A DNA stretch of 54,627 nucleotides, from positions 1 to 54,627 of the IMG/VR virus record IMGVR_UViG_3300032677_000040; one strand, given 5' to 3'. The position numbers and the translations under genes are program-made. This document shows, in pieces, positions 4,812 through 53,252 of this stretch (its first letter is position 1; each line of letters begins with the position of its first letter). This DNA comes from a virus. Under the pieces are notes generated by a model. The model was not told the origin of the DNA and did not search any database. It worked only from the letters and a program-made list of their open reading frames with translations.

Positions 4812-6107
4812 ATGGCGTGGCTCACTTCGATACTCCAAAACGTCGGGCGAACAGGGAGCGATATTTCCGACGCCAAGAGTGCAAATTTGCAGGAGAAGCA
4901 AAGGACACAACAGTTCCAGACTCAACAAAAGGAACTGCAGCAGCGCTTCCAGCAGAACGCGGCTCCCACGGTGGTGCATACCTATCGCGCCTCAGACGGG
5001 AAACTGCATAACCTCGTTCGGAACCCGATGGACGGGAAGATTACGGATCAGGTAGCAGAAGGGGCGGCGCAGGAACTCACTCCCGGCCAGCAGAAGATCA
5101 AAGACGCGGAAGTAGCGCTCGGGCGCCCGCTAAGCGACAAAGAAAAAGAGATTCTCACGGGAATCATTCCCAAGCCTTCCGCCTCGCAGGACTTGTCGGA
5201 CAAGTGGACCGAGGCAACGAAGATCGGCCAGCAGCAGTTCCCGAATGACCCGCAGAAGGCGATGGAGTTTGCCCGCTCGCTCATGCCGGGAGGGGCGTCG
5301 GTCAATCAGATGGTCTTTCCGCAGTTGAAGAAAACGACTGGCCTCGACCCGATCATTACGGCTCAGATTGGCAAGCCTCCGGATCCGTCGATCTACCCCA
5401 AGGGCGAAGATGACCCGATTTACAAGGCCAAGGCGAAGCAGTGGGGCGTGGAGGCCGAAAACATCAAGAATCGCATGGTAGAGGCTCGAGGGATGGGCTA
5501 CAACATGACCCGAATCGGGGCCTACGTCGATGACGATGGAAATCTAATAACCACGACCGGCGGTACTGCCATGGCGAAAGGCTATACGCCGGCAGCTCCC
5601 ACGTTTCAGTTGATGTCAAAGAACGCTCAGTTTCAGGAAATGGAGAATGCTTCCGGTAAACTTCGCGGAGCAATCGAAGCCTTGCAGCCGGGAGACGCTT
5701 TCACTCCCGATCAAGTGGCGAAACTATCACTGGCTTCGCGTGCGCCTGACGAGGGGGCATTCCACGCGATTATCAGTAATATGGCTTCCGGCACAACGAA
5801 CGAGCGCCAACAAGACTATCTGATTTGGCTTGGCCAGATGGGGGAGCGCATCTTGTCGCTGCGAAACATCGCTGGCATGGGCCAAGGCGCGCAAGATCTA
5901 CGCGCGGCGATTCAAGCTACGTTGCCGAATCTATCGTCTGGCTCGAAGGAATTTGCGCTGAAACGTCTGGATGCGGTGGATAACCAAATAAATCTGCTGC
6001 AGAAAGGTATCGGGAAACTGAAGAACAATCCGGCCACGAATGGTGCGGGACAGCTGCCTCCGGGTGCAAAGATTATCAAGTGGGACGACGTGAAACCAAA
6101 TGCCTGA
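4812..6107 (+). CDS. Internal virion protein candidate, Gln-rich coiled coil
   Basis: 431 residues, ATG 4812 three bases after the preceding TAA. The N-terminus (about 10-60) is a Gln/Lys/Glu-rich predicted coiled coil with many Gln-Gln pairs. The middle is hydrophilic and Pro-rich, and residues about 290-420 look mostly helical. Length, position and composition fit the internal core/ejection proteins that follow gp14 in T7-like gene order (gp15-like). It overlaps the next ATG by 8 bp, so the two are probably translationally coupled. No catalytic motif seen. It also contains one copy of the dispersed TGCAAATTTGCA palindrome. Confidence 0.5.
   Translation: MAWLTSILQNVGRTGSDISDAKSANLQEKQRTQQFQTQQKELQQRFQQNAAPTVVHTYRASDGKLHNLVRNPMDGKITDQVAEGAAQELTPGQQKIKDAEVALGRPLSDKEKEILTGIIPKPSASQDLSDKWTEATKIGQQQFPNDPQKAMEFARSLMPGGASVNQMVFPQLKKTTGLDPIITAQIGKPPDPSIYPKGEDDPIYKAKAKQWGVEAENIKNRMVEARGMGYNMTRIGAYVDDDGNLITTTGGTAMAKGYTPAAPTFQLMSKNAQFQEMENASGKLRGAIEALQPGDAFTPDQVAKLSLASRAPDEGAFHAIISNMASGTTNERQQDYLIWLGQMGERILSLRNIAGMGQGAQDLRAAIQATLPNLSSGSKEFALKRLDAVDNQINLLQKGIGKLKNNPATNGAGQLPPGAKIIKWDDVKPNA
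4880..4891. repeat. Dispersed palindrome TGCAAATTTGCA, copy 1
   Basis: Perfect 12-bp palindrome inside the internal-virion gene, read there as Ala-Asn-Leu-Gln codons. It is one of seven copies in the window, six of them exact; see the finding on dispersed palindromes. Confidence 0.85.
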
Positions 6108-7593
6108 CCGCTACGTGCAATTACCGAACGGATCCTACCTTCAGTGGCCAGAAGGTGTCAGTGCAGCCACGTTCAAAGCTAAGGCGACGAAGCTCATGGG
6201 CCCGTCGTTGCCAGTTTCGACGCGCAAGGCAGCGGATTTACCGTTGCCGACTGCTCAACCTCCAAAGCCGTTTATGAGTCGCCTGTCCGACTATGTTAGT
6301 CAAATCGCGCAGTCAACCGCCAAGACTCCCGGCTCGGTGATAGATAGTGCCCGGAACTACTACAAAGAAGGCGAGCAGCAGGGCGGTTTTACTGGTGGAA
6401 TGAGGATGGCGGAAGCTCCTATCATGGCCGAAGGTGACGCTATTACCGGGATGCTCAAATCTGTGCTCGGCGTTACTGCGCCAGGTATTGCCTATCGCGT
6501 ATCGAAGAATGAAGATCCCGCCAAGATTGCAGCGGACGCCGGTACGTTCCTTGGCGGCTACATGGCGGGAGGTCCGAAGGAAGCAACAGCGGGTGAAGGT
6601 TTGTCGGTAGGGGATGCAGCCAAGCAGATCACTGATGCGGTAAACCCAGCTCCGAAAGAAATGGCAGCGTTTCAACGGAGCGTCAGTCAGCATCTTGACA
6701 AGATCACCACATTCGCCAAGCAAAACGGCATTGACATTGGTTCAATCGGTGGCTTATCGGAGGCGATGAAGGGTGCCGGGAACTGGATCAGGACTCACTA
6801 CTACAACGAGATTCTTGGACCCGTTAAAGATCGGCCGGTTTCCATCGCCGGAACGATTCCGGGATATTCGGGCGAAACAGCCTCACCATCGACCGCCACG
6901 TTGGGCCAGTTGGACGCTCGCTTGTCGCAGATTAATGCGGAACTCAACCCGAAGTATTCCAAGGGCGGGATTGCTGGGCAGGCGGCGGTCAAGTCTGCCA
7001 CGGAACTGAACGCAGAAGCGGCGGGAATCAGGAAACAGCTTTACGATGCAGTCGGTAAAGCCACTGGCCTGACTCCGGAACAGGTAGCGCAGACTCGCGG
7101 GGCATTCGGATCGCTCGACTCGCTGGCCGAGAAAACTGCAACGGCGGCGGCAAAAGAGAGATTCGCGGCGAACAAGACTGCTCGGGCTCCGCTCACAGTC
7201 AATCCTTTCGGAGACAGCGGGAAGCAGTTTATTGCGGACAAGGCGGTAAATGCGGTGCGCGGCGATGTGGTGGGCAAGGGACTAAAGACGGCGCTCGGCA
7301 AGGTTAAAGTCAAGCCTTACGAATTACCAGCGGCCAAGCCCACGTCAGTCACTGCGAGGATCCGCACTCCATTGCGCGGGGAATCTGGCATTAAGACGAA
7401 CATTGAAACACCAGGTCCCGCGGAGCGTGCCGCGGTTCCAGAAAAACTAGACGCTCGCAGAACACTGAATGAAGTGACCCGAAAGAAAGCAGAACTCGAC
7501 AGGGCGAATGCGGAACTGCAAAGGACAATTAAGAGTTCTCGGCATCCATTTTGGCAAGATCCAAGAGGTTCATTTGAGAAGGGAGATCAGTAA
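6100..7593 (+). CDS. Large internal virion/ejection protein candidate
   Basis: 497 residues, overlapping the upstream gene by 8 bp. Residues 1-30 contain a Tyr-Val-Gln-Leu-Pro-Asn-Gly-Ser-Tyr..Trp-Pro-Glu-Gly-Val-Ser unit followed by a helix. This matches a short domain (PDG..FPDGMS type) often found in phage ejection proteins and virion transglycosylases. The middle is Ala/Gly-rich with a possible membrane-active segment near 130-150 (Gly-Tyr-Met-Ala-Gly-Gly). The C-terminus (about 440-497) is a charged helix. No lysozyme or transglycosylase motif was recognised, so a DNA-ejection role is inferred from position and the N-terminal unit. Confidence 0.5.
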   Translation: MPDRYVQLPNGSYLQWPEGVSAATFKAKATKLMGPSLPVSTRKAADLPLPTAQPPKPFMSRLSDYVSQIAQSTAKTPGSVIDSARNYYKEGEQQGGFTGGMRMAEAPIMAEGDAITGMLKSVLGVTAPGIAYRVSKNEDPAKIAADAGTFLGGYMAGGPKEATAGEGLSVGDAAKQITDAVNPAPKEMAAFQRSVSQHLDKITTFAKQNGIDIGSIGGLSEAMKGAGNWIRTHYYNEILGPVKDRPVSIAGTIPGYSGETASPSTATLGQLDARLSQINAELNPKYSKGGIAGQAAVKSATELNAEAAGIRKQLYDAVGKATGLTPEQVAQTRGAFGSLDSLAEKTATAAAKERFAANKTARAPLTVNPFGDSGKQFIADKAVNAVRGDVVGKGLKTALGKVKVKPYELPAAKPTSVTARIRTPLRGESGIKTNIETPGPAERAAVPEKLDARRTLNEVTRKKAELDRANAELQRTIKSSRHPFWQDPRGSFEKGDQ

Positions 7594-7761
7594 ATGGCGA
7601 AGAAGAAGAAACGCTCACCAGTTTCGATGAAGATCGGCAAGTTGATCAAGGAAGGCAAGGAACCCAAGGCCGCTGAGGGCGAGGCATTTGGAATGCAGCG
7701 CGAGGGCAGGCTGACAAAACGCGGCGGTTACAGACGGACTCGCGGGAAGAAGAGGAAGTAA
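7594..7761 (+). CDS. Tiny highly basic Lys/Arg-rich peptide
   Basis: 55 codons plus stop, ATG immediately after the preceding TAA; the stop overlaps the next ATG (TAATG). The protein begins Met-Ala-Lys-Lys-Lys-Lys-Arg and ends Arg-Gly-Lys-Lys-Arg-Lys, with net charge strongly positive and no Cys. GGGAG lies about 10 bases upstream of the ATG. It is unrecognised; a nucleic-acid-binding or packaged DNA-neutralising peptide is conceivable. Three other tiny basic genes exist in the window (7761, 50944, 51151). Confidence 0.65.
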   Translation: MAKKKKRSPVSMKIGKLIKEGKEPKAAEGEAFGMQREGRLTKRGGYRRTRGKKRK

Positions 7762-7859
7762 TGGCCAAAAAGAAACGTGGCGCAAAAGCATTATTCCTCA
7801 AGAACGTGAAACGGATTGCCGCCTACGACAATCGCGGCAGAGGGAAAACGAGGTCATAA
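7761..7859 (+). CDS. Tiny basic peptide, 32 aa
   Basis: ATG overlaps the previous stop (TAATG) and the TAA is followed at once by the next ATG, so three genes are packed without spacing. The peptide starts Met-Ala-Lys-Lys-Lys-Arg-Gly like its neighbour and ends Gly-Arg-Gly-Lys-Thr-Arg-Ser. The shared Met-Ala-Lys-Lys-Lys start suggests duplication. Function unknown. It is below the usual length cut-off of gene callers, and support comes from the packing and the composition. Confidence 0.55.
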   Translation: MAKKKRGAKALFLKNVKRIAAYDNRGRGKTRS

Positions 7860-8135
7860 ATGGTTGTAAGTCTGCAGGTAACAATCACAACTACGGGCGT
7901 AGCTCAGCAGATCAGTACGGCCCAGACCCAGGTTCGTTTCATCGATTTTCAGAATAACGCTGCCGCTGCAATGCGGATCGGTGACTCGACAGTGAGCGCA
8001 ACCAAAGGACATACCCTTGCGGCTACGGGAGGGGATTTCCCGGTCCACACAGGGGATGTGTATTTTTCCTACCTCAGCGATTGGTGGGTCGAAGGCACAT
8101 CTGGTCAGTTGCTCGACGTGACGTACATAACGTAA
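7860..8135 (+). CDS. Small beta-rich virion protein
   Basis: 91 residues, directly abutting upstream and overlapping the fibre gene start by one base (TAATG). Mostly Val/Thr/Gln-rich beta sequence with Val-Arg-Phe-Ile-Asp-Phe-Gln-Asn-Asn-Ala..Met-Arg-Ile-Gly-Asp-Ser..Val. This pattern is seen in small phage proteins that accompany fibres or act as decoration/attachment proteins. The position immediately before the first spike suggests a fibre connector or cap. No enzyme motif. Confidence 0.5.
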   Translation: MVVSLQVTITTTGVAQQISTAQTQVRFIDFQNNAAAAMRIGDSTVSATKGHTLAATGGDFPVHTGDVYFSYLSDWWVEGTSGQLLDVTYIT

Positions 8136-11100
8136 TGAAAAAGTGGATCGCCATCTCGTTGCTGTTCCTTGCAAGCATGGCCTTCGGGCAGTCCGTGGTT
8201 ATCACGGGCACGGTTTTGAGCCCATCCGGGCAGCCTTACAGCAACGGCAACGGGAAGGCTCAACTACAGCCAAGTAACGTACAGTGGTTGTTCGGAAATT
8301 CGCCTGTTCCTAGTCCCATAACGATCGCAAGCCTGGATTCATTCGGCCGTTTCAGCGTTACCCTAACCAGTACGGCCGTAATCCAGCCACAGTCCCAAGG
8401 ACCAACATGGCAGTTTAGCTTCTGCAGTCAGGTCTACGCCTCACAGACACAGCCTGTTTGCTTCACGATGACCCCGATGGCTCTAACGACATCGCAGGAC
8501 ATTAGCACGCAGATTCAGGCGCAGTCGGCACCATTGCCTTCGTCTGGTGGGGGGATTACGAGCTTAGGGCTTAGCGTCCCTCAAGGTTTGAGCGTGTCTC
8601 CGTCCAGCCTCTCAGCGCCGGGTACGTTTGCGATCACTTGGAACGGAACTCCAATCCCAAACTCTGCCATTCCTGCCCCAACCGCCTCAGCGCTTGGCGG
8701 GGTGGAATCGATCACCTGCACGAATCAGTTCTTGAGTGCCATTTCCACCTTGGGAGTGCCACTTTGCACTACACCGTCGTTCGTGTCGCTAACCACCACA
8801 GGAACGGCTGGAGCAGCGACTCTTTCCGGGGGTGTCCTGAACATCCCCCAGTACACAAGTAGCGGCGGCGTTGTCTCCTCCACTGCGCCATTTCAAGCTC
8901 TGTACAGCGGCACGCCCGGCAGTACGGTAACGACGGTTAGTGGCCAGCAGAAGCCCATCTATGACGTCCGAGATTACGGCCTCGCTTGCAACGGCTCAAC
9001 AAACGACACAGCGGCAATGGTTGCGCTCCGTACAGCGAACACACAAAATGCGGCAGTAGCGATTCCGGTTGACGCGACCCACCCGGGCCCCTGTGAACTT
9101 GGCGGCATCAATCTTCCGTTCGCGCTGGATTTCTCAGGCGGCGGCGCGATTGGAGTGATTGCCAACCCAGCTACTCCCGGCAACGGTGCTTTGGTGCAGG
9201 CGAGTCCTGGCACCGCGTACACCGGAAATAGTTGCACGGCAACTTTAAACTCGGCTCCGACCGCAGGCAATGCGGTCTTGATGGAAATTATCTATGAATT
9301 TGGTTCGGGCACGGTTCCAAATCTTCCCACGGACTCTGCCAACGACTCCTTCAATGTGCTGTTGCAATCGAACCTTAGTTTCGAATCTAACTCTACGTCG
9401 TGGGCTGCGGCTGCAGTGGCAGGGGGGAGCGCGAGTCAAGCGATCACAGTCACGCTCGCTGGTGCTTCCACGCACGGTGTTTGCTTCGCACAGGAAGTTT
9501 CCGGAGAAGGCACTGGAATCGCAGTCGATCCAGGCAGCACCTTTACATATGCTAGTGGCTCGTCGCCCTACAGTGGACCGTACAGCGTCACGGCGACCTT
9601 AGAGCCCGGTGACTTCGTTCTAGCCTACGGCGGGCAAGGCACAAATAACACGACATGCACCCAGGGCAGCGGATTTACTCAACCGTCCAGCACCGAGGGA
9701 AATGTCAATGGAATGTGTTTGCAGTACCAAGCGGATTCCTCCGCGGGCTCGGTAACCGCGACACAGACCACATCTCCCAACTCCTTCAGTGATTACTGGG
9801 TCTACAATATCGTCGGAATTCGGCCAGGAACTTCCGTCGTCCATCCACAAGCAGGAATCATCGATCCGGACCTGCATCAGGTTTTCGTGAACGCTACTGG
9901 TGCGAATGGCGCAATCAGTTTCTTTCACAACTTAGCCCTGAGTAGGGTCTATCCGGAATGGTGGGGCGGGTCCCCGCCTGTTTCGGCAGCAACCAATACT
10001 CCTGCTATCCAAGCGGCCATCAATGCGTCGTTCAATAACGGCGGACCGGCCTATAACAAAGTTCTCGACCTCGGCCGCGGCATTTACAACATCAACGCCG
10101 AAACCCAGTGGTACACGGTCGAAGGCAACGCGGGTGCGCGCTTTCAAGTAGACTGCGCGCCAGCCGGCGGAATCAACCAGACAACCGCAAATCTTCGTCT
10201 GATGGACTCGCAAGGTATGGACTACGGGCGATTTGATAACTGCTCGTGGAGTTCTTCGGCAACCGACACACAGGCCACGGCCCTGCTTGATATCGACTGG
10301 AACGGCACGACGACGCCGAACAGTCAGAAACCGCAGTTTCTGGACTTCTACTCAAACACGTTCGGCGGGAACAAACTCCGAGCAATCGGCGTCCTTGGAG
10401 CGAAAAGCGGCGGATCGGCACAGTTCTCAAACATCAACTTCTACGACCCGGAATTCATTGGCTTTACGCAGGCGGCTTACCAGATCGGAACACCGACAGT
10501 TCTCGCGGATAACGCGATTGAGAACTTCATCTGGGGCGGTGACATGCAGGGGAATAATGACTACGGGGCAGCCGTTTATGGCGGCAACATCGAAATCATC
10601 GGCACGAGCATGGAGAATGGGTTTTCAGCCACCACGAATGAAGGAGCGCAGACTGGTTACGACATGTACTGTGCTCAGAACCAAGGCAACTGCATCATGG
10701 AGTATGTCCGCTCTGAAAGTATGCACTTAGCGGCCTGCACAACCTGCATCATCAAGCACAGTTATACAACCGATCAAGGAGTATTCCCAGTTCCAGGTGG
10801 AACTCAGCCAGTAGGCACGATTGTAGATGGACACAACGAAGCAAATGCTTGGGACGGACGATATTATATCGTCACAGCAGACAACGGAGCGTTCGGAGGA
10901 GTTGGAAGCACAAGCACGCCGGTCATCGCATCAGGTGGGAGTGGGACGACCATCGTAGACACTAACGAAAATGTGGCAGGTTCGGTCACTACAAAAATTT
11001 CGCTCGCGGGAGAGACAGTTACCCAGACTGGAACTGGATCAACCGCAACTCTATTGAATGTTCCTGCCTCTATCGGTACGGTTGCCGGATCACTCGGCAT

Positions 11101-13150: not shown

Positions 13151-13158
13151 GGAGGCTT

Positions 13159-15393: not shown

Positions 15394-15400
15394 GAGGCAT

Positions 15401-16204: not shown

Positions 16205-16205
16205 C

Positions 16206-23160: not shown

Positions 23161-24070
23161 ACACGCCGTACAGAACGCCATCCCCGGCTGGACCGGTCGG
23201 CTCGCAGCCCACTACATTTCGTACAATGCGAACGGACAAGTACATCGAGATTTACCCTACGCCAACCCAAACGATCCCAAGGTCATTGCCAAACAACTGG
23301 AACTGATTCAGGCGTGTGGATTCGATGTGGTCATATCGACTTGGCAGGGGCCGTGGGCTACAGCCTGCAACCAGAACGCCATGGCCGTTTCGGCGCTCTG
23401 TACTGCGATGGGCCTCCAGTTCGCTCTGTTACTGGACCCGTGGTGTGCCAAGCTCAATTCTCAAGGGCAGGCGACAGCACCGTCGATCAGTAACCTGATT
23501 GCAGCTTTGCAATACTCAACCACTCAGACCATGCTCAAGGCGACGAGCTACGTCCCTGAAAAGTACGTGCTCGATTTCAACACCCTTAACCCTACGACGT
23601 TGACCAACCTGAACGCCCTGACCACGGCCATCCCGGGAGTTGAGTTTCTCGCGCAGAACACCGAGTTTTCGTGGATTGCCTACCCTCCGGCGACGATTAC
23701 CGACTCGGTAGCCAAAAACGCTTGGGCCACTGCAAATTTGCAGGTGCAGAATAAGAACGCTGGGATGAAAGTTCCTGGCGTTTGCATGTCGTTTAACGAT
23801 TCGGGCTTGCCATTGCCTCAAGGAGTTCCCACGCAGGCCGCTTTTGATGCGTCAGGAGGCGTTCGGGACTGGTCTATGAGCGTTTGGCTACCCCCAGCCC
23901 CCAATCGCGTCCTAGGGAGCTTTGGAGGGCAATTCCTCCTGCAGCAGTTGGCGGTTACACCAGCGGCCGCACCCATAATTGCCATAATTACCTGGAACGA
24001 TTACGACGAGGGCACGGCGCTCGAGCCTAAAATCTCTGAATTGCTGGGTGTAAACTGGGCTAGCCTATGA
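23150..24070 (+). CDS. TIM-barrel glycoside-hydrolase-like protein (GH99/GH71-like)
   Basis: 306 residues, starting inside the previous gene's 3' end. The N-terminal His-Tyr-Ile-Ser-Tyr..His-Arg-Asp-Leu-Pro-Tyr (about 21-38), followed by a helix and Gly-Phe-Asp-Val-Val-Ile-Ser-Thr-Trp-Gln-Gly (about 57-67), and the C-terminal Ile-Ile-Thr-Trp-Asn-Asp-Tyr-Asp-Glu-Gly-Thr-Ala-Leu-Glu-Pro, are the hallmarks of barrel glycosidases related to GH99/GH71. The acidic Asn-Asp..Asp-Glu-Gly cluster would be near the active site. No signal peptide is seen. The position between membrane proteins and a DUF5675 gene suggests a role in wall or capsule breakdown. No classical endolysin is visible in the window, so this could be the lytic enzyme. 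Specificity cannot be told. Confidence 0.6.
   Translation: MNIKHAVQNAIPGWTGRLAAHYISYNANGQVHRDLPYANPNDPKVIAKQLELIQACGFDVVISTWQGPWATACNQNAMAVSALCTAMGLQFALLLDPWCAKLNSQGQATAPSISNLIAALQYSTTQTMLKATSYVPEKYVLDFNTLNPTTLTNLNALTTAIPGVEFLAQNTEFSWIAYPPATITDSVAKNAWATANLQVQNKNAGMKVPGVCMSFNDSGLPLPQGVPTQAAFDASGGVRDWSMSVWLPPAPNRVLGSFGGQFLLQQLAVTPAAAPIIAIITWNDYDEGTALEPKISELLGVNWASL
23731..23742. repeat. Dispersed palindrome TGCAAATTTGCA, copy 2
   Basis: Exact 12-bp palindrome inside the glycosidase-like gene, where it encodes Ala-Asn-Leu-Gln. Confidence 0.85.
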
Positions 24071-31155: not shown

Positions 31156-31347
31156 AACCGTCTCCTGCTCTCTGATTCCCATAGAAACGTTGATTTGGTG
31201 GATCTGACCCTCCATGAAGGCTGCCTGCCAGGTATTCCATTCGGCGGTAGCCGTTGGCCCGTCCAGTCTCATCCCCGGATAGACTCTTTCAAAGTATTCC
31301 TCAAACCGCTTACGCATCTGTTTCACCCTCGCCCTGCAAATTTGCAC
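31144..31347 (-). CDS. Small helical early protein
   Basis: 67 residues; the annotated GTG start at 31347 overlaps a copy of the TGCAAATTTGCA palindrome, and ATG 31317 is an alternative. Arg-Lys-Arg-Phe-Glu-Glu-Tyr-Phe-Glu-Arg-Val-Tyr-Pro-Gly, then Trp-Asn-Thr-Trp-Gln-Ala-Ala-Phe-Met-Glu-Gly, is a pattern of small phage proteins found near recombination genes. Function unknown. Confidence 0.5.
   Translation of the reverse strand: MQICRARVKQMRKRFEEYFERVYPGMRLDGPTATAEWNTWQAAFMEGQIHQINVSMGIREQETVPCR
31335..31346. repeat. Dispersed palindrome TGCAAATTTGCA, copy 3
   Basis: Exact 12-bp palindrome that covers the start codon region of the small minus-strand gene, so a bound protein could block its translation start region or transcription through it. 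Confidence 0.85.
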
Positions 31348-35413: not shown

Positions 35414-35932
35414 GTGACCGCAGAAGAATTTGCTCGGCTTCTCGACGGTCGCAGAGTTGGGCGTGGCAAGTGGATAGCTAGATGTCCAGCACATGCTGAT
35501 TCTCACCCGTCCCTCTCTATAACTACAGGGAGAAAGGTTGACGTTGTTTTCAGATGTATGAGTCAAGGGTGTACGGCTAACGAAATACTAGCAGCGATGG
35601 GCTTACGCTGGCGTGATTTGCTAGGGAGACGCCCACAGATGAGCAGAGAAGCGCGTAGCAGGCTCGCAGACGAGCGGGCATTGCATTCCTTGAGAGACAT
35701 CAGGCGGCTAATGGCGATCGACACCTACCTGTCATTTCCTGAGATGGGCGTCAGTCAGCGTCAGGTCGAAGGGTGGGATGCTATTACGCGCCAGATACGC
35801 GATATCGAGGAGCGGTTAAATCCAAAGCTCAAGGAGATTCGCTTACGGGGTGAAAAGACGTACAGATTCGTCAAAAAGTGGGGATGGGACAAGCTATGGA
35901 ATTTATATCTTGAGAGGAGCAACGCTTTATGA
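35414..35932 (+). CDS. CHC2 zinc-finger protein (DnaG-type N-terminal domain only)
   Basis: 172 residues from GTG 35414. Cys24-x2-His27..Cys48-x4-Cys53 with His-Pro-Ser-Leu-Ser-Ile in between is the zinc-binding domain of DnaG-type primases. The TOPRIM catalytic part is absent, and the remainder is an Arg-rich helical region. It may bind single-stranded template and recruit host primase, or be a cut-down primase. Overlap of 4 bp (ATGA) with the next gene. Confidence 0.7.
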   Translation: MTAEEFARLLDGRRVGRGKWIARCPAHADSHPSLSITTGRKVDVVFRCMSQGCTANEILAAMGLRWRDLLGRRPQMSREARSRLADERALHSLRDIRRLMAIDTYLSFPEMGVSQRQVEGWDAITRQIRDIEERLNPKLKEIRLRGEKTYRFVKKWGWDKLWNLYLERSNAL

Positions 35933-36570
35933 GTACGCAGCTAGTACCGTCGGAGTTTTCCACAGGTGCAAATTTGCGCTCCGACGAGGTTCAGGAATTT
36001 GAGGCCATCGACGCCATGGTGCGAGCCTACGAGAAGCAATGGGTTCTGATCGCCCAGCAGTGCATTCGAGTCCAATCCGCGGCGCTCTGGCGGCATGGGG
36101 GGTACCACAGCTACGAGCACTGGCTAAACGAAGCCGCTCCTAAGTCAGCGAGAACGATCTTCTACCACGTTGGGGTGGTCAAGGATCTGGCTCCAGACTT
36201 CACATCGGAAGAACTCGCAGAGATGCCCCCAGAGACCGCGAAGGTCATGCGGAGGCTGTCAACCTCAACCAGACGTGATCCGGCTGTCAGAGAGGCTGGG
36301 AAGCGCAAGAAACGGCAATTTATAGAGACCGTCCAAGAATTGCACCCCGAAGAACACCTTGAATCGACATTTAAGCTCGAATTGCAGTTTGAAGATTCGT
36401 TCTCGGGGATCTTCCGCACTTTTGTAGACGGAATCAGGGCTATCGAGGATGATCCGGAACTGAGCTACGAGAAATGCTTCGAGTTATCGATTCTCTCCTG
36501 GCTGAATGAGTCTTTCTGTGAAAATACGACGAACCTGCAGCGGTTGAAGCAGTTGGAGATGTTAAAGTGA
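35929..36570 (+). CDS. Replication-operon protein of unknown function
   Basis: 213 residues, coupled at both ends by 4-bp overlaps. The N-terminal half is helical with Tyr-His-Ser-Tyr-Glu-His-Trp-Leu-Asn-Glu and Ala-Arg-Thr-Ile-Phe-Tyr-His-Val-Gly, suggestive of a DNA-binding helix-turn-helix. A long Lys/Arg-rich stretch follows near 120-130. It resembles parts of ParB-like or plasmid-type regulators only loosely. It holds palindrome copy 4 near its start. Confidence 0.5.
   Translation: MSTQLVPSEFSTGANLRSDEVQEFEAIDAMVRAYEKQWVLIAQQCIRVQSAALWRHGGYHSYEHWLNEAAPKSARTIFYHVGVVKDLAPDFTSEELAEMPPETAKVMRRLSTSTRRDPAVREAGKRKKRQFIETVQELHPEEHLESTFKLELQFEDSFSGIFRTFVDGIRAIEDDPELSYEKCFELSILSWLNESFCENTTNLQRLKQLEMLK
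35967..35978. repeat. Dispersed palindrome, copy 4 (TGCAAATTTGCG)
   Basis: The 10-bp core GCAAATTTGC is intact; only the last outer base differs from the other six copies. It lies 38 bases after a start codon. Confidence 0.75.
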
Positions 36571-39278: not shown

Positions 39279-39506
39279 CTAATTCTCCTTCCAAAGAGCT
39301 TTGATACTTGGCAGTTCGCAGCAAATTCCGTTGTAGCCGAGGAAGTTGTTCCAGTCCTTCGACAGAAGGGTAATGGGGTCGGCGGTGACACGGTTTAAAA
39401 CCTTACCGAGGGATAACAGAGCCGTGCTGCCGCAGTCGCAACAGACGGGCGAATCCCCAATGTGATCGTTGCCGCAGAGCCATGATTTATCGAGTGGTAT
39501 CAGCAT
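39279..39506 (-). CDS. Small Cys/His zinc-binding protein, first gene of leftward operon
   Basis: 75 residues. Trp-Leu-Cys-Gly-Asn-Asp-His-Ile-Gly-Asp-Ser-Pro-Val-Cys-Cys-Asp-Cys-Gly near 9-26 is a zinc-site pattern of small phage proteins. The SD-like GGAGAG lies upstream. Its leader holds palindrome copy 5. As the first gene under a divergent promoter it may be a regulator or accessory. Confidence 0.6.
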   Translation of the reverse strand: MLIPLDKSWLCGNDHIGDSPVCCDCGSTALLSLGKVLNRVTADPITLLSKDWNNFLGYNGICCELPSIKALWKEN

Positions 39507-39524: not shown

Positions 39525-39536
39525 TGCAAATTTGCA
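39525..39536. repeat. Dispersed palindrome TGCAAATTTGCA, copy 5 (intergenic)
   Basis: The only copy outside coding sequence. It lies between the leftward promoter and its first gene, where a repressor or roadblock site would be expected. Confidence 0.85.
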
Positions 39537-39630: not shown

Positions 39631-39637
39631 ATAGGTC

Positions 39638-39808
39638 ATGATCAATGAAACAAAGCAGAAACCAAAAACCAGATTCGTCGCGTTGCCTTCGGAAATTGAC
39701 GATCGCGTGGTACAGCTCGCGGCGGAGGAGCGCAGAAGCGTTTCGAACATGATTATGCTCTTGGTCGAAAAGGGCCTCGATAGCGACCTACACAGTCGGG
39801 AGGAATAG
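39638..39808 (+). CDS. Ribbon-helix-helix (Arc/CopG-like) regulator
   Basis: 56 residues. A short strand (Thr-Arg-Phe-Val-Ala-Leu-Pro, 11-17), helix A (Glu-Ile-Asp-Asp-Arg-Val-Val-Gln-Leu-Ala, 19-28) and helix B (Ser-Val-Ser-Asn-Met-Ile-Met-Leu-Leu-Val, 34-43) give the RHH fold. Such dimers bind palindromic operators through the strand. Gene order, with the recombinase directly downstream and divergent promoters upstream, suggests it autoregulates and controls the integration/early decision. It is a natural candidate for recognising TGCAAATTTGCA or the nearby dyads. Confidence 0.7.
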   Translation: MINETKQKPKTRFVALPSEIDDRVVQLAAEERRSVSNMIMLLVEKGLDSDLHSREE

Positions 39809-39810
39809 CC

Positions 39811-40532: not shown

Positions 40533-40588
40533 TCGCTCGCACAAGGCACTTTACAGCACGTACCTACCTCGTTTACCCTCGTTAACCA

Positions 40589-42229: not shown

Positions 42230-43572
42230 TAAACTTTTGCACGACCTGCCGCGGACGAACCTCCCACTTAAAAATAACCCTTCCCCGTAATCTTGCAGAC
42301 AACAAATCTCCCAACTCCCGTTTTGTAGTGCTCAATTACAACAGCCCCGACGGGCTCCTGGACTATGTCGTGACGCACCACCGGGAAGACCTGCGAACTG
42401 GAAAACTAGTGGTCTATAGTTTCGCTCCCGATGATGGTAAGTGGCATATGGCGCACGCCAAGAGTATGGCGATGCGGCTGGGCATCTTGGAGGGAGCCGA
42501 CACGGTTGTGACCCTCGATGCCGATAACTTCGCCGGTCCGAACTTGGACGAATACATCGCCGCTAATCTTGAGCCGGGGAGCTTCCTGCATCCCGACTTC
42601 GCCGCCATCAAGAAAATGCCATGGACTGCAGAAAGGCCTTTACGTGGTTTTGCCGGCCGGTTGGCCATTCGGTCGCAGGATTTCCTGAAACTCGGTGGCT
42701 ACGACGAACAGTTCGATATTTGGGGCAGCGAAGACATTGACCTGCTAGGCCGCCTGCACCGTTCTGGATACACTCCGAAGTTCTTTCATTACAAAAACCT
42801 CTACACCATTCCCCACGGGCCAGAGGTCCGCTTCAAGGAATACCCTGAGGCGGAAAAGAACGAAGCCAAGGAACATAGTCGTTGGATTGATTCGCGGACG
42901 GAAACCGTAGTCAACTATGGGAAGTTTGGCATGGGGACCGTCTACAGGAATGGTGATCCAACTCCGATCACGCTAGGCCCAGTTCCCACCCGAGTATTCG
43001 GTATCGGACTCCACAAGACAGCCACTAGTTCCCTGCACAAGGCGTTTCAGTCTCTAGGCTTCGATAGCCTGCATTGGGGTAATGGTGAAGCCCCGCTGAT
43101 CTGGCAGGAAGTCAACGCCGCAGGCCGGTCGAAAACCTTGGAGCGCTTCTACGCCGCTTGCGATATTCCCATCCCCTTGCTCTATCAAAAACTGGATAAG
43201 GCGTATCCCGGATCGAAGTTCATCTTGACTACCAGAGATGAATCCGAGTGGCTGACGAGCGTGGAGAGGATGTGGGACGCGAAGTACAACCCAACGCGAT
43301 GGCAGTGGGATGTTTGGCCGATTTCCAATCGACTGCATACGGCGTTGTATGGCCGCAGCGACTTCGACGCGCAAACGATGCTAAGCCGCTACCGCCAGCA
43401 CAATGCCGAAGTTGTGGAGTACTTTAAGGATCGTCCTGACGACCTGTTGGTCATGGATATGTCGAACGGGGCCGGATGGCTGCAAATTTGCACCTTTTTA
43501 GGGAAGCCGGTCCAGAGCGCTCCCTACCCTAGGGAGTACCCAACGCGGGAAGTGGGGTCGCCAGAATCATGA
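42226..43572 (+). CDS. Glycosyltransferase-sulfotransferase fusion
   Basis: 448 residues, start coupled (ATGA). Residues 1-215 form a GT-A family 2-type glycosyltransferase: Thr-Thr-Cys-Arg-Gly-Arg-Thr near 6-12, Asp98-Ala-Asp100 metal motif, Gly-Phe-Ala-Gly-Arg-Leu-Ala and Gly-Gly-Tyr-Asp-Glu..Gly-Ser-Glu-Asp-Ile-Asp-Leu. It resembles chondroitin-type N-terminal GT domains. Residues about 258-430 look like a sulfotransferase: Phe-Gly-Ile-Gly-Leu-His-Lys-Thr-Ala-Thr-Ser-Ser for PAPS 5'-phosphosulphate binding and Thr-Thr-Arg-Asp-Glu-Ser-Glu-Trp for the 3'-phosphate. It would add and then sulfate a sugar, either on the host surface or on a virion protein. Palindrome copy 6 lies inside. Confidence 0.75.
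   Translation: MINFCTTCRGRTSHLKITLPRNLADNKSPNSRFVVLNYNSPDGLLDYVVTHHREDLRTGKLVVYSFAPDDGKWHMAHAKSMAMRLGILEGADTVVTLDADNFAGPNLDEYIAANLEPGSFLHPDFAAIKKMPWTAERPLRGFAGRLAIRSQDFLKLGGYDEQFDIWGSEDIDLLGRLHRSGYTPKFFHYKNLYTIPHGPEVRFKEYPEAEKNEAKEHSRWIDSRTETVVNYGKFGMGTVYRNGDPTPITLGPVPTRVFGIGLHKTATSSLHKAFQSLGFDSLHWGNGEAPLIWQEVNAAGRSKTLERFYAACDIPIPLLYQKLDKAYPGSKFILTTRDESEWLTSVERMWDAKYNPTRWQWDVWPISNRLHTALYGRSDFDAQTMLSRYRQHNAEVVEYFKDRPDDLLVMDMSNGAGWLQICTFLGKPVQSAPYPREYPTREVGSPES
43481..43492. repeat. Dispersed palindrome TGCAAATTTGCA, copy 6
   Basis: Exact copy near the end of the fusion gene, read here in a different codon phase (Leu-Gln-Ile-Cys) than copies 1 and 2, so amino acid sequence does not explain it. 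Confidence 0.85.
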
Positions 43573-44150
43573 ATATCGAACGAGCGCTAAAGATCAAAGA
43601 CGGGTGGATGAGCAGGCAAGAACTTCAATGGCTTGCCGCGTCGGCGTCCGTAAACGCTCGCATTGCCGAAGTCGGATCATGGACAGGACGCTCGACGCGT
43701 GCTTTGGTGGACAACACCCCCGGCACTGTCCTTGCCGTGGACACATGGTTGGGTTCCCCAGGGGACTTGGATGATATTGTTGCCCTGCGAGGGGCATGGT
43801 GGGCATTTGGCAAGTTTCACCACAACCTGATGGATGCTTTCGAGGGGAACAGGCTCTCCGTTATGCGAATGGACTCATTGAAAGCCGCCGCTGAATTGAG
43901 AGATCGCTACGAAAGTTTTAACATGGTCTTCATCGACGCCAACCATACTTACGAGTCCGTAAAGGCTGACATTCTGGCGTGGACGCCACTGCTTAGACGT
44001 TCTGTTTCAGGGCGTGGGGGCTTGCTCTGTGGGCACGATTTTACAGAGCAATGGCCCGGTGTCATGCGAGCCGTGAGCGAACTGATTCCTAACTATCGTC
44101 TCATGGACAATCCGTCAACGGATAGAACGATCTGGTGGAAGCCAGTCTAG
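43569..44150 (+). CDS. Class I SAM-dependent methyltransferase (Methyltransf_24-like)
   Basis: 193 residues, ATGA overlap with the fusion gene. Motif I Ile-Ala-Glu-Val-Gly-Ser-Trp-Thr-Gly-Arg-Ser-Thr (32-43), acidic loop Ala-Val-Asp-Thr-Trp (56-60 region), Met-Val-Phe-Ile-Asp-Ala-Asn-His-Thr-Tyr (about 118-127) and Gly-Leu-Leu-Cys-Gly-His-Asp-Phe are typical of O-methyltransferases acting on sugars or small molecules. Because it is coupled to the glycosyltransferase-sulfotransferase, it probably modifies the same glycan. Confidence 0.8.
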   Translation: MNIERALKIKDGWMSRQELQWLAASASVNARIAEVGSWTGRSTRALVDNTPGTVLAVDTWLGSPGDLDDIVALRGAWWAFGKFHHNLMDAFEGNRLSVMRMDSLKAAAELRDRYESFNMVFIDANHTYESVKADILAWTPLLRRSVSGRGGLLCGHDFTEQWPGVMRAVSELIPNYRLMDNPSTDRTIWWKPV

Positions 44151-48723: not shown

Positions 48724-50454
48724 ATGCCCCAATTTGTCGGCTACGACGTAGTAACGGAGCGTAAGACTTCTCCTGCTTACAACAACCCCGACAAGGTAGT
48801 TACGGACCAACTGAACGAACTGGAGCGTATTTCGCGCACCGAGCGCGACAAGCACCTTGGCAAAGACTACTTCGATGACATCAAAGACTTCTACGACCTG
48901 CAAACGGTAGGCTCTGGGTTTGTAAACTCGTTCAAGCCGCAGGTGATGATTCCACAGCTTCAAACCTTGGTACTGAACGAAGCCACCGACATCACCGACG
49001 CCTCAATCAAGGTCTACATCACAAACGACGGGAAGCGGGACAACGACCGCGAAAAATACTATCAGGCCAACTGGCGGCAGGGCTGCTACAACAACCGTAT
49101 TCTGGAATCAATTATCTGGGCCATGCTGACGAATCTGGGTTACCTCCAGATAGGGTTTTCCCCGTCGGCAAGGCGCGGCAAGGGGATGACGTGGATAGAG
49201 TCCCGCGATCCAGCCACGGTGAATCCTGACCCGTTCTGTAAGTCCGATTCAAACTGGTCATGGACGCAGTGGTGGGACTGGATGTACATCGATGAAGTCC
49301 GGAGACGTTGGCCGGACGAGGGCTGGAAGATCAGGCCGAAACTTTATGCCGGCAGTGCAGACCCCTACGGGCAGATTGACACCACGTTAGATTTCCCGGA
49401 ATACTCCCCACTGAGCAACCAAGGGAACGAGCCGGAGAAGCGCATCTTCCGGGATAACCGGGTTCGGGTCAGAAGCACATTCCTGTTTGACAACACGAGA
49501 GAAAAAGTTGAGTCTTACGCTGGTAGTTCTAGTGAAGCTGCTGGTCTGGTTCATCCTCGTTTCGGGTATAAGTACCCGGACGGGCGGTGGCTCGTAGACT
49601 GCGATGACGTGGTTTTAGCGGACGGGAACAACTGGTGTCCGCAGTTGCCTGACGATGAGAGAGGCACGTTTCCGCTCGTCAGGGTGGCCGCCATGCCCAC
49701 GATAGCGAATTTCTGGGGTCCAGCCCCCATAAACCTCTCGCGGAGCCTGCAGAACCTCGGGGAACGTATCTACACCCAGTTGTTCGAGAACATCGTTCGA
49801 ATCAATAACGGCGTGATCGTGTTTGAGGAGCGTACGGGTTTAGATCCCAACTCAATCGGCTGGCTGCCGGGTGAAGTTCTGGTTATCAAGAATGGTTCTA
49901 CTCCCCCGGTGGTGACTCCAATTACTCCCATGCCTCAACACATGATTACCGTGCCGGCGTCCCTGTTTGCGCTGCAAAAGGAATTGCAGGGCTTCTCCGA
50001 GGCTCGCCAGGGGCAGTCTGGGGGCGGGAACGTGTCGCCTGACCTATTTGACGCTACGCTGTGGCAGAGTCACTACCAGACTAGATTACGCGGGCGACTG
50101 CTGGCTGAATCGCTCCAGCGCCTCGCCCAGATTGTGTTCTATACCGACGCGCGGTATAAGAGCATCGCGGACAAAGTTTCCGTTCCCGACAAAGGGGACA
50201 TGATGCGGGCCGAATGGACTCCGATCGATTCGACGTCGATGGATCAGTACGACGCGCAGTTAGATCCCGGTAGCCTCAAGGTAGTAAGCGCGGGGGCCAT
50301 GCGCTCGGTCGTCATGGCGCTGAGTAAGACGGGCATGATTCCGACCGAAACGGTACTAGAAACATTTGATATTCCCGAGGCCCAGAAAATAAGCGAAATG
50401 AACATTCGCGAGAAGGAACTTTCTGCGATGGCTAAACTAAAGAAACCAAGGTAG
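48724..50454 (+). CDS. Portal protein
   Basis: 576 residues, ATG 48724. Trp-Arg-Gln-Gly-Cys-Tyr-Asn-Asn, Gly-Tyr-Leu-Gln-Ile-Gly-Phe, Arg-Asp-Pro-Ala-Thr-Val-Asn-Pro-Asp and Trp-Trp-Asp-Trp-Met-Tyr-Ile-Asp-Glu-Val-Arg-Arg are typical of portals, as are the long helical region with Ser-Glu-Ala-Arg-Gln-Gly near 430 and the Gln-rich C-terminal barrel. Length and place (between TerL and scaffold/capsid genes) support this. Forms the dodecameric DNA gate at the head vertex. Confidence 0.8.
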   Translation: MPQFVGYDVVTERKTSPAYNNPDKVVTDQLNELERISRTERDKHLGKDYFDDIKDFYDLQTVGSGFVNSFKPQVMIPQLQTLVLNEATDITDASIKVYITNDGKRDNDREKYYQANWRQGCYNNRILESIIWAMLTNLGYLQIGFSPSARRGKGMTWIESRDPATVNPDPFCKSDSNWSWTQWWDWMYIDEVRRRWPDEGWKIRPKLYAGSADPYGQIDTTLDFPEYSPLSNQGNEPEKRIFRDNRVRVRSTFLFDNTREKVESYAGSSSEAAGLVHPRFGYKYPDGRWLVDCDDVVLADGNNWCPQLPDDERGTFPLVRVAAMPTIANFWGPAPINLSRSLQNLGERIYTQLFENIVRINNGVIVFEERTGLDPNSIGWLPGEVLVIKNGSTPPVVTPITPMPQHMITVPASLFALQKELQGFSEARQGQSGGGNVSPDLFDATLWQSHYQTRLRGRLLAESLQRLAQIVFYTDARYKSIADKVSVPDKGDMMRAEWTPIDSTSMDQYDAQLDPGSLKVVSAGAMRSVVMALSKTGMIPTETVLETFDIPEAQKISEMNIREKELSAMAKLKKPR

Positions 50455-50462
50455 TTATATCG

Positions 50463-50705
50463 ATGGAGCAGGAAATCACATGGGTTCCCGTATCGGTCAT
50501 CGCCGCGGAGTATCAGCGCACCCCGCAGATGATCCGTAACTGGGTGCGCTCGGGATTCATTGTCGAGATAGGTTTTTCGGTGCGCCGCGACATGACCGGC
50601 CACTTCATAATCGGGGTGCCAACCTCGGAGTATGAGAAGTTCCAAAATGCAAACAATGCAAAACTAGCAAACCAACCTGTTGTAAACCTCTCGCAAATCT
50701 TGTAG
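50463..50705 (+). CDS. Small winged-helix/MerR-like DNA-binding protein
   Basis: 80 residues. Ser-Val-Ile-Ala-Ala-Glu-Tyr-Gln-Arg-Thr-Pro-Gln-Met-Ile-Arg-Asn-Trp-Val-Arg-Ser-Gly (about 11-31) is a MerR/excisionase-type helix-turn-helix. Located between portal and small genes; might act as a late regulator or excisionase, though its place in the head operon is odd. Confidence 0.6.
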   Translation: MEQEITWVPVSVIAAEYQRTPQMIRNWVRSGFIVEIGFSVRRDMTGHFIIGVPTSEYEKFQNANNAKLANQPVVNLSQIL

Positions 50706-50716
50706 TTCTCTGAGTC

Positions 50717-50947
50717 GTGGACGGCTTCTACCCTGAGATTGTAGGTCACCGCTTCGAGATCCTCCGGCTGGAAAGCATGGGGGAAATGTGGTACGCCCAA
50801 TTCGCGGTAGATGGCAGGCCATATCCGGCGTTCTTTGAGCCGAAAAGCAATGTGGATGCGATGAAGGAAGACGAATTTTTGGCGTACATGAAGTGTCAAT
50901 CGCTCACGATGGTGGCACACGTCGAGCAGAAAATGGGGCACGCATGA
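50717..50947 (+). CDS. Small hypothetical protein
   Basis: 76 residues from GTG 50717. Gly-His-Arg-Phe-Glu-Ile-Leu-Arg-Leu-Glu, then Trp-Tyr-Ala-Gln-Phe. Mixed strands and a C-terminal helix. It overlaps the next tiny gene by 4 bp. Unknown. Confidence 0.45.
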   Translation: MDGFYPEIVGHRFEILRLESMGEMWYAQFAVDGRPYPAFFEPKSNVDAMKEDEFLAYMKCQSLTMVAHVEQKMGHA

Positions 50948-51066
50948 AGGGTCGAGGATCGAAACTGAAAAGATTTGGGCCGCACAAGATGGCGACGAAG
51001 CTCCAGACGAAGCGGAGCGGTGGCCGTGGTGGGCGCATGTCCGGCAAGCGCGGGATGCGGTCCTAG
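50944..51066 (+). CDS. Tiny Gly/Arg/Lys-rich peptide, 40 aa
   Basis: ATGA-coupled to the previous gene. Starts Met-Lys-Gly-Arg-Gly-Ser-Lys and carries Gly-Gly-Arg-Gly-Gly-Arg near 26-31. Very basic, no acidic residue. Looks like a nucleic-acid-binding peptide. It shares the Gly-Gly-Arg-Gly-Gly-Arg motif with the gene at 51151. Confidence 0.55.
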   Translation: MKGRGSKLKRFGPHKMATKLQTKRSGGRGGRMSGKRGMRS

Positions 51067-51150
51067 CGAGGTTGTTAAGCAGTAATAGACGCTGATATTG
51101 CTCTGGTGCCGCAAGGCGTCCGTGTTCAGCGTCGGAAGGGAGCACACACA

Positions 51151-51219
51151 ATGATCGACCGTTTCGAGTCCCAAGCCCGCAAGGGTGGACGCGGTGGCCG
51201 GAAACACAAGCGCCACTAG
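51151..51219 (+). CDS. Tiny Gly/Arg/Lys-rich peptide, 22 aa
   Basis: ATG 51151 with GGAAGGGAG at usable distance. Phe-Glu-Ser-Gln-Ala-Arg-Lys then Gly-Gly-Arg-Gly-Gly-Arg and a Lys-His-Lys-Arg-His end. Only 22 codons, so support is limited to the ribosome site and the motif shared with its neighbour. Confidence 0.45.
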   Translation: MIDRFESQARKGGRGGRKHKRH

Positions 51220-51244
51220 AAAGAACGCAAGTCAACTGAACTAG

Positions 51245-51270
51245 GGGCGGTCCACCGGGGTGTACTGCCC
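51245..51270 (+). other. Short hairpin between small genes
   Basis: GGGCGGT (51245-51251) pairs with ACTGCCC (51264-51270), one G:U. No T-run follows, so it is not a clear terminator; it may be an RNA processing or stability element. Confidence 0.3.
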
Positions 51271-51288
51271 TAAGTTCACAGGGGAAAA

Positions 51289-51492
51289 ATGGCAAAGAAC
51301 ATCCCAGGGTTGCACAACGATAGTCCGTTCAACGCGACTCGCGCGGACCGATTCACAACCCTGAGTCCCGCCCAAGAAAGTTTTGAAGGCAACAACCTGG
51401 CAGACCCTCCCCCGTTTAATGGTGAAGAACCACCGGACCCGCTAGGGATCTGTCCTGAGAGGGACAAAGTTTTTGGAAAGAAGAGGAGATAA
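51289..51492 (+). CDS. Small Pro/Asp-rich head-module protein
   Basis: 67 residues, GGGG about 4 bases upstream. Hydrophilic, disordered-looking (Pro-Pro-Pro-Phe-Asn-Gly-Glu-Glu-Pro-Pro), ending Lys-Lys-Arg-Arg. Lies before capsid genes; may be a scaffold-like or decoration accessory. Unknown. Confidence 0.5.
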   Translation: MAKNIPGLHNDSPFNATRADRFTTLSPAQESFEGNNLADPPPFNGEEPPDPLGICPERDKVFGKKRR

Positions 51493-51494
51493 AA

Positions 51495-51677
51495 ATGTAT
51501 CCAGACCCCTATGGAAAGGCGACAAAAGCTTTACCCGACATACTCGGACCGCTGAACATCGCATCCCAAGGCGACAAGTTGGTTCCCGAAAACGACATGG
51601 CAGAAGTAGCTCCGTCGTGGGCCTCCGGCAAAGAGAGCAAAGATCCTCTCGGCGTAGTGATTAAAGGCGGCAAATAG
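51495..51677 (+). CDS. Small hypothetical head-module protein
   Basis: 60 residues, ATG 51495 with GAGGAG upstream; its TAG overlaps the next GTG. Mixed polar sequence with no motif: Pro-Asp-Ile-Leu-Gly-Pro-Leu-Asn-Ile-Ala. Unknown. Confidence 0.5.
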   Translation: MYPDPYGKATKALPDILGPLNIASQGDKLVPENDMAEVAPSWASGKESKDPLGVVIKGGK

Positions 51678-52102
51678 TGGCTGCTGGTCCTGGCGGAATC
51701 GGGCAGTTGATTATGTCTGCACTGCAGGCTCGCACTGGAGCTGGCGGTGGACAGCCCGGTCAGACTATGCCGGGGCAAGGTGGCCCTGACCAGCAAGATC
51801 CCGGAGCGCAGTATGCGCAGCAGGTAGCATCCCTCAAGGGTGCCGACCCCGGAATGCTTCTCCAGACTATGAAGGCCATGAAGCAGCAATGCGCCGTGCT
51901 CATGGTGCAGAACCTTGAACGGCTCCCGAATGTCAGCGGCCAGCTTTCGAAGTTGGTACCCATGTTTGACCGCGTGATTAAGGAGATAAGCCAGGCCCAG
52001 AACGTAAATTCAGCAGTACGAAATCCGATCGGCATGGGGGCCGCGATGCCCCCGACTGATTCACCCAACGCAACCGCTCCACCCAACCCCGGAGGGATGT
52101 AA
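51677..52102 (+). CDS. Gln/Gly-rich head-module protein
   Basis: 141 residues from GTG 51677. A Gly/Gln/Pro-rich middle flanked by helices; the C-terminal helical part has Val-Leu-Met-Val-Gln-Asn-Leu-Glu-Arg-Leu and Lys-Leu-Val-Pro-Met-Phe. One-base overlaps at both ends. Precedes the scaffold and may be a portal- or scaffold-associated protein. Confidence 0.5.
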   Translation: MAAGPGGIGQLIMSALQARTGAGGGQPGQTMPGQGGPDQQDPGAQYAQQVASLKGADPGMLLQTMKAMKQQCAVLMVQNLERLPNVSGQLSKLVPMFDRVIKEISQAQNVNSAVRNPIGMGAAMPPTDSPNATAPPNPGGM

Positions 52103-52902
52103 TGAATCTAGAGCAAGTTTTGCAGGACAAAACAGGCTACGAGGACAGTATTGAGATTGTCATCAAAGGGGAGAAGGTTACCCTTGGCGATTTGCGAACT
52201 CTGTCCGCTACTCAGCAACGTCAACTTTCGGACAAAATTTCTGGTGCCGAACGGCGCGAATCCGAAGCGCGAGATGTGGCCCAGAAGGCTGCCACGATGC
52301 TGGCCGAACTGAAAACCGCCCATGACGCATTACAGGCGCAGCGCACGACCCCGCCAAGTGAGGACGACTTCGACAAGGAAGAGTTCTGGGGCCCCGTGCG
52401 AAAAAGGTTTTCTGATCGTGATGCAAAGATCGATCAGGCCCTCAAGGGGATCGAGGCCCTAACGAACAGCGTGAAGCAGGCCGCTACCATTTGGGCGGAA
52501 GATCGCTTCCAGGGCCAGTTTGAAAAGAACGCCTCCCGGTTGAAGAAGGTTGATCAGTACAAAGACTGGGATTACAAGAAAGTCCGCGACTACGCGGCTG
52601 AGCACAAGGTTCTCGATGACTACGGGATGCCTTCGGTCGAAAGAGCCATTCTCGAACTGACCAAAGCCAACGACATTGAGACGATCCGCAAGGAAGCCTA
52701 CGCGGAAGGCCTGAAAGCCGCCAAGACCAAAAATCGCCTCGAAGCTCAACCCCGCCCCTCGTCCGCTACCGGTGGGCGTCAGCCGGCAGACAAGAGCGCC
52801 GTTGCTGAAATCGGCCTTGAAGGTTTGGGGGATGACGCAATCAATGATCCCGAACTGATGGAAATGTTTGCCCAGATCCAGAATGGTGGAGAAGTTCAAT
52901 GA
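52102..52902 (+). CDS. Scaffolding-like protein
   Basis: 266 residues. The N-terminal Tyr-Glu-Asp-Ser..Ile-Val-Ile-Lys-Gly-Glu-Lys-Val-Thr-Leu is followed by long Lys/Glu/Ala/Gln coiled-coil helices and an acidic, disordered C-terminus (Leu-Gly-Asp-Asp..Asp-Pro-Glu-Leu). Size and location just before the capsid gene match scaffolding proteins, which guide coat assembly and then leave. ATGA overlap with the next gene. Confidence 0.65.
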   Translation: MNLEQVLQDKTGYEDSIEIVIKGEKVTLGDLRTLSATQQRQLSDKISGAERRESEARDVAQKAATMLAELKTAHDALQAQRTTPPSEDDFDKEEFWGPVRKRFSDRDAKIDQALKGIEALTNSVKQAATIWAEDRFQGQFEKNASRLKKVDQYKDWDYKKVRDYAAEHKVLDDYGMPSVERAILELTKANDIETIRKEAYAEGLKAAKTKNRLEAQPRPSSATGGRQPADKSAVAEIGLEGLGDDAINDPELMEMFAQIQNGGEVQ

Positions 52903-53252
52903 AAAACGTATCGAGTTTCTTGTCAGGCACGATCGATAAGGCCCTGCTCGCTAACGGCGTGCAGTTGACCGGTAAAGAACTAACTCCGGTTTCAAGGCAG
53001 GTTGCGGAGTACGTCTACCTGAACGAGGAAGCATTCAATAAGGCGTTTGCAGAGGACAAGAAAGTGCGCGCCGAAGTGGATGCCGCCGAAGCACAAGCGG
53101 AGAGAGAACGCGCCGAGGCCGCGGGAGAGCCGGTTAAGGAAGCGCCTGCAAATTTGCAGCCAGCTCCGGCGCAAGGTGGCAAAAGCTGGTGGTGGAGACA
53201 GCAGCAGGCCCGAGCTGTGACGGCAGAAGATCAGGCGGGTGAAAAGGTTTAG
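52899..53252 (+). CDS. Head-assembly accessory protein
   Basis: 117 residues. Helical N-terminal region, an Ala/Glu-rich helix near 55-78, then Pro/Gln/Ala linker and a basic aromatic patch (Ser-Trp-Trp-Trp-Arg-Gln-Gln-Gln). Probably a small scaffold or decoration partner of the capsid; no family recognised. It carries palindrome copy 7. Confidence 0.5.
   Translation: MKNVSSFLSGTIDKALLANGVQLTGKELTPVSRQVAEYVYLNEEAFNKAFAEDKKVRAEVDAAEAQAERERAEAAGEPVKEAPANLQPAPAQGGKSWWWRQQQARAVTAEDQAGEKV
53147..53158. repeat. Dispersed palindrome TGCAAATTTGCA, copy 7
   Basis: Exact copy inside the head-accessory gene, again encoding Ala-Asn-Leu-Gln. Confidence 0.85.

Follow-up and report, generated by a model that had tools for sequence, protein, structure and literature searches.

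What role might a short palindrome play when it recurs, in almost identical form, at distant places of a single phage genome? The question is raised by the window, i.e., the whole stretch of viral DNA analyzed here (54,627 nucleotides, IMG/VR record IMGVR_UViG_3300032677_000040), whose genes encode a terminase, a major head protein, a RecE/RecT pair, a helicase, RusA, a ribbon-helix-helix (RHH) protein, and a catalytic-domain tyrosine recombinase. All seven scattered 12-bp palindromes claimed by an earlier sequence-only reading were confirmed at their positions. Six of them are TGCAAATTTGCA, in which the core GCAAATTTGC is flanked by T and A (4880, 23731, 31335, 39525, 43481, and 53147), and the seventh, TGCAAATTTGCG at 35967, has its final base changed to G. 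The core occurs seven times in this 54.6-kb contig compared with 0.16 expected (sd 0.42, maximum 2; 100 dinucleotide shuffles), which bears out the claim of a frequency far beyond chance. Two-mismatch variants of the palindrome are present at background level (three seen, 2.05 expected), and thus the set is sharp. All 14 half-sites have G or C as their second base outward, counted from the core, with no constraint on the positions beyond, giving the unit (G/C)TGCAAATTTGCA(G/C), which is G-ending in one copy. The longer GTGCAAATTTGCAG said to be common to four copies does reflect a shared flank, but its true form is the looser (G/C)TGCAAATTTGC(A/G)(G/C).

Further examination showed that selection on this palindrome acts at the DNA level. 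In 1000 synonymous-codon shuffles of the window genes (52 hand-picked gene calls), a mean of 0.166 coding copies was obtained with a maximum of 2, compared with the five observed. These five copies have two readings, Ala-Asn-Leu in four and Gln-Ile-Cys in one, and the window genes spell Ala-Asn-Leu by other codons at eight further places, in agreement with the earlier statement that amino acid sequence does not explain the repeats. Moreover, no 10-bp palindrome other than GCAAATTTGC occurs more than once in the window. Chance, codon usage, and an amino-acid effect were ruled out by the dinucleotide shuffles, the codon shuffles, and the lack of other repeated 10-bp palindromes. Coincidence as the origin of the sharing of the motif between phages was likewise rejected: none of 232 viral stretches of at least 8 kb carries another 12-bp palindrome at three or more separated places, this set being a non-random one of window relatives or motif-fetched sequences in stretches shorter than whole contigs. 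A hairpin or terminator was also ruled out for the window, as none of the seven copies is, by eye, a perfect palindrome past 14 bp; elsewhere, among 14- and 16-mer matches, the palindrome frequently extends into a longer inverted repeat.

With respect to the adjoining genes, site 1 (4880..4891) lies ~69 nt inside ORF 4812-6107 and site 2 (23731..23742) in the middle of ORF 23150-24070, with no copy in the 4.9-23.7 kb between them. Site 3 (31335..31346) directly precedes, in a leader read by eye, a Shine-Dalgarno-like GGGCGAGG and the ATG at 31317 on the minus strand, and has the RecE-like gene ~255 bp downstream. The variant site 4 (35967..35978) is ~39 nt inside the gene of a 213-aa protein (35929..36570, plus strand), and site 5 (39525..39536) occupies the leader of the gene of a 75-aa CxxC protein (39279..39506, minus strand), 20 bp upstream of its ATG. 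On the other side of site 5, at ~110 bp, starts the RHH protein (RHH_5) gene (39638..39808, plus strand), directly followed by a gene (39811-40347) for a 178-aa tyrosine recombinase with a catalytic-domain match. Site 6 (43481..43492) is close to the end of ORF 42226-43572, 87 bp before the next gene, and site 7 (53147..53158) has a similar place near the end of its own ORF (52899-53252), with the gene of the major head protein 139 bp downstream. The protein encoded by 42226-43572 joins a glycosyltransferase part and a sulfotransferase domain and is followed by a methyltransferase gene. We also observed 12-bp direct repeats of the ACCCGGACCCGT type at 32004-32411, in an ORF with a C-terminal DUF6745 domain; a similar repeat is present in the DNA of the relative G016 and a Gly/Tyr/Ser repeat protein in another relative, G006.

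Four contigs are near-identical to the window and contain four or five copies each, whose spacings equal those of the window within 1 bp where covered. They carry ~1.9 kb at or near the window end and start that is missing from the record. Since these contigs span the record ends (1 and 54627), the record is incomplete, and the genome is either a circle, a concatemer, or circularly permuted. In the near-identical L001, differences are found beside site 5 with the palindrome itself unchanged. Three window copies also have counterparts at matching places in diverged relatives. G020 shares 77% DNA identity with the window over 48739-53367, and there site 7 is preserved as an island, 18 bases long without a mismatch, while the surrounding gene end varies. 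G085 shares several proteins with the window, two of which, at 61% identity, come with matching-place copies, one ahead of the 75-aa coding sequence, in its leader, and one at the 5' end of the 213-aa coding sequence. In the former, site 5 falls in a 13-base identity island, TGCAAATTTGCAG, within an otherwise diverged leader (54% identity over the aligned stretch); in the latter, the Ala-Asn-Leu common to both proteins could in part account for the match at site 4. Other relatives hold few copies or none: G006, whose TerL is 83% identical to that of the window, carries a single copy in its 56 kb, G016 has none, and among fragments G013 has one and G009 and G011 have none. Thus, the set varies within the phage group to which the window belongs. 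A megablast search of window positions 20001-45000 and of positions 1-20000 of the multi-copy contig G120 against phage records returned nothing useful.

To find further carriers, IMG/VR was scanned with GTGCAAATTTGCAG, which matched 108 stretches, and with CTGCAAATTTGCAG, which matched at least 118. Whole-record counts of the copies covered 97 of the 108 stretches of the first scan, 50 of the 118 listed in the second, G021, and contigs near-identical to the window. Five further multi-copy contigs emerged, namely G021 (4 copies), G085 (5), G119 (4), G120 (7), and G161 (12 cores, seven of them full 12-mers), and the remaining whole-counted records mostly contain one core and some two. A third form of the motif matched at least 120 stretches, and four of the 120 listed have more than one core when counted within the fetched stretches only. 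The outer flanks of the palindrome vary between phages. No protein common to all six multi-copy phages (including the window) was detected. The 213-aa family is present in the window, G085, and G119; the window protein at 36567-36863 has a counterpart in G119, and the window helicase and methyltransferase have counterparts in G161. Proteins are also shared between G085 and G119 and between G021 and G119, and one family of the latter pair (genes at 2879 in G021 and 17536 in G119) has a copy near the 3' end of each gene, these copies not being aligned column on column.

Besides these contigs, closely spaced palindromes were observed in several loci. Pairs exactly 33 bp apart (L167 815-857, L184 6525-6567, L245 3687-3729, and L259 3861-3903) are located in related phage genes of ~210-320 aa and read SANLQ followed by SANLQ or SANLH. 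In L254 (2343-2386), L263 (4315), and L269 (1493), two palindromes are 34 bp apart, one of them part of a perfect inverted repeat of 26 bp, and the gene immediately downstream by eye resembles a terminase small subunit. A proteobacterial contig (L349 2080-2219) has three GCAAATTTGC cores in 140 bp after an ORF that, read by eye, is tape-measure-like.

Using simple longest ORFs as gene calls, 20 of the 36 copies in the six phages lie within -150 to +100 of a called start, compared with 11.1 expected (p 0.0015), and eight of 36 are intergenic, compared with 1.9 expected. The interval was picked after the distances had been seen and eight intervals were then tried; in none of them does p for the pooled six phages exceed 0.0095. 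In the window itself, six of seven copies are near starts compared with 1.9 expected, with p ranging from 0.0025 to 0.26 over the eight intervals and two upstream-only intervals not significant (0.16 and 0.26). The window, G021, G085, and G119 together have 16 of 20 copies near starts against a null of 6.4, whereas G120 and G161 have four of 16 against 4.7 and are unenriched whichever of the eight intervals is used. The outer consensus in G120 and G161 differs, and the motif that they share with the others may be there by coincidence. Five copies appear by eye to stand directly before a Shine-Dalgarno-like stretch and a start codon (window 31335 and 39525, G085 13002 and 27095, and G119 4683), and TTGACT-18-TATATT is found just upstream of G085 27095. 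Promoter matches of at least 9/12 precede three of 19 near-start copies (the twentieth being too near a contig end) compared with 2.9% of random near-start places; in window positions 31000-44000, promoter-like matches are at chance level (9 versus 7.4 expected). A mark for replication, packaging, or recombination would suit copies spread around the genome and a palindrome that has no orientation, but the near-start excess in four phages and the long copy-free stretch after site 1 make this explanation extremely improbable.

Taken at about 55% probability, our main reading is that the palindrome serves as operator for a regulator that the phage uses and would itself encode, a dimeric protein binding DNA in a sequence-specific manner. 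In favor of this reading are the excess over both kinds of shuffles, the sharpness of the set, the DNA-level selection, the copies retained at corresponding positions of relatives, and the siting near gene starts; that a protein binds there and represses is our inference. Bound at leaders and gene beginnings, such a regulator would block transcription start or early elongation, and through the dispersed copies several operons could be blocked, and hence controlled, together. The earlier suggestion of a repressor or stoperator-like site fits the placement near gene starts in four of the six phages, but does not extend to G120 and G161. Besides these two unenriched phages, the mid-gene position of site 2, the overlap of six of the seven window copies with called ORFs, the lack of significance of the window alone in the upstream-only intervals, the chance-level promoter-like matches in window positions 31000-44000, and the single and missing copies of G006 and G016, respectively, count against an operator.

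Which protein would bind the sites? The sequence-only reading had proposed the RHH protein at 39638. CopG recognizes TGCA boxes, and MetJ sites have an 8-bp spacing; the window protein might similarly contact, in every copy, a pair of TGCA boxes separated by 8 bp. It scores over the cut-off for RHH_5 and is encoded next to site 5, and in G085 a weak RHH match reaches close to the site at 13002. That match is below cut-off, however, and is equalled in G016, which has no copy, and in G098. RHH_1 was met in the window only, no RHH protein was found by sequence in G021, G119, G120, or G161, and a G021 protein that looks RHH-like by eye gained no support from any tool. A profile from the window and G085 proteins found no third member and, being built partly from G085, adds nothing for that phage. 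By our own reading, the predicted DNA-contacting strands of the two proteins are also unlike each other. A role of this protein at the sites is very unlikely, its general use in other phages being doubtful.

For the operator reading, the best lead to the binder is the 213-aa protein, which holds site 4 in the 5' end of its own gene and has a weakly ParB-like predicted fold. The same protein bears on another explanation, in which the copies are centromere- or KorB-like dispersed sites, through which a ParB/KorB-type protein would partition a plasmid-like prophage or silence it over long distances. The model of the 213-aa protein is helical and of low confidence (mean pLDDT 59.7). Its best row in a second PDB comparison is residues 131-230 of Myxococcus xanthus ParB (Z 5.9, rmsd 3.9, 94 aligned residues), a Z under 8 possibly reflecting just a common arrangement; TAL effectors came next (Z 4.9) and, like the other rows under ParB, were set aside. 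Foldseek gave no match at E 0.001 in the PDB or viral models, and no solved structural relative of the family was found (best E 0.76). Homologues occur in G085 and G119 and were not found in G006 and G016, which favors this explanation, but they were not found in G021, G120, or G161 either. AAA_31, ParB_N, and HTH_ParB are over cut-off in none of eight records, the one ParB_N match, below cut-off, lying inside a 2241-aa frame of G120. For the ParA-type ATPase (PF13614), none of the eight records has a match at E 1, compared with 14 of 14 controls, and these records may be fragments. The segregation site suggested earlier, taken as one of ParABS, found no support in these searches, and sites of the centromere or KorB kind seem quite unlikely. 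A search for further relatives of the 213-aa and 75-aa proteins returned only already-known contigs, and the predicted structure of the 75-aa protein was uninformative (mean pLDDT 39.9). When 76 proteins from G085 and G119, 102 from G120 and G021 (25 of 29 families), and 49 from G161 (25 of 40) were compared with Pfam, no regulator in common was seen among the families listed.

A host protein, i.e., a global regulator or nucleoid protein whose sites several unrelated phages exploit, might also be the binder, as the six multi-copy phages have no detected protein in common. Tetranucleotide usage correlates at 0.51-0.69 among the window, G085, and G021, compared with mean controls of 0.31-0.33. 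Single controls, however, reach 0.57 with the window, above the window-G021 value (three still higher "controls" are pieces of the same phages), and G006 correlates at 0.68-0.73 with these three phages yet has one copy. The 16-bp form ACTGCAAATTTGCAGT matches 113 scattered stretches in GTDB, where ~60 would be expected at even base composition by our own arithmetic. No clade dominates among the 80 of 113 listed, which are spread over phyla, and the actual host may be absent from that collection. In the 48 genomes picked from these matches, of 1.1-6.9 Mb, the 12-mer is present 1-7 times. A mark spread over bacterial genomes was not seen with this one form. In one genome (G189, that of L378), three of seven 12-mers in 4.1 Mb are within 130 bases of contig starts, as if in a repeated element. 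Together with the phage-specific outer flanks, these results make a host binder possible but rather unlikely. A binder from the host would mean that unrelated phages are tuned to a single host regulator. We consider it unlikely that one palindromic operator serves as a common currency of unrelated phages, in which case the same scattered sites, in several phages with no detectable repressor in common, could let one regulator, from the host or from a co-resident phage, switch many phages at once. For the operator reading as such, a sharp palindromic set in environmental phages with no evident shared repressor offers a precise bait for the binder.

A literature search for TGCAAATTTGCA and GCAAATTTGC found no phage operator among the matches listed. 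HIP1 is likewise a single short palindrome in large excess, but is described as a cyanobacterial genome feature, whereas no enriched bacterial clade was seen here among the listed GTDB matches. Scattered inverted repeats are also reported for the genome of N15 (an excerpt of PMC5016525, citing the N15 paper), in contrast to which no ParA/ParB family was detected over cut-off in our records. KorB of the IncP plasmid RK2 is a plasmid-wide repressor with short inverted-repeat operators (an operator oligonucleotide is given in PMC11790492), and its OB sites are scattered according to the same excerpt of PMC5016525; the present sites resemble these operators in being short inverted repeats and differ in sequence and in the lack of a ParB_N match over cut-off. 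In cluster A mycobacteriophages such as L5 and Bxb1, the stoperators are described, in excerpts of PMC9283540 and PMC6550527, as short repressor sites across the genome, in promoters and elsewhere, with a group-specific consensus. The window set is alike in consisting of short sites scattered over a phage genome. Compared with the promoters and short intergenic spaces typical of stoperators, copies are near starts in four of six phages, but six of seven window copies overlap called ORFs. Two defining features set stoperators apart: they are 13-bp, asymmetric, and oriented with transcription, whereas the window site is a perfect palindrome, and they number over twenty per genome compared with seven in the window, whose record misses ~1.9 kb. 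The set is thus best read, by analogy, as resembling stoperators or KorB operators, lacking those two stoperator features and, as far as searched, partition proteins. Its layout would be that of dispersed operators, stoperator-like yet palindromic. As phage-wide scattered operators are best known in cluster A mycobacteriophages, this palindromic set would be a second, differently built example.
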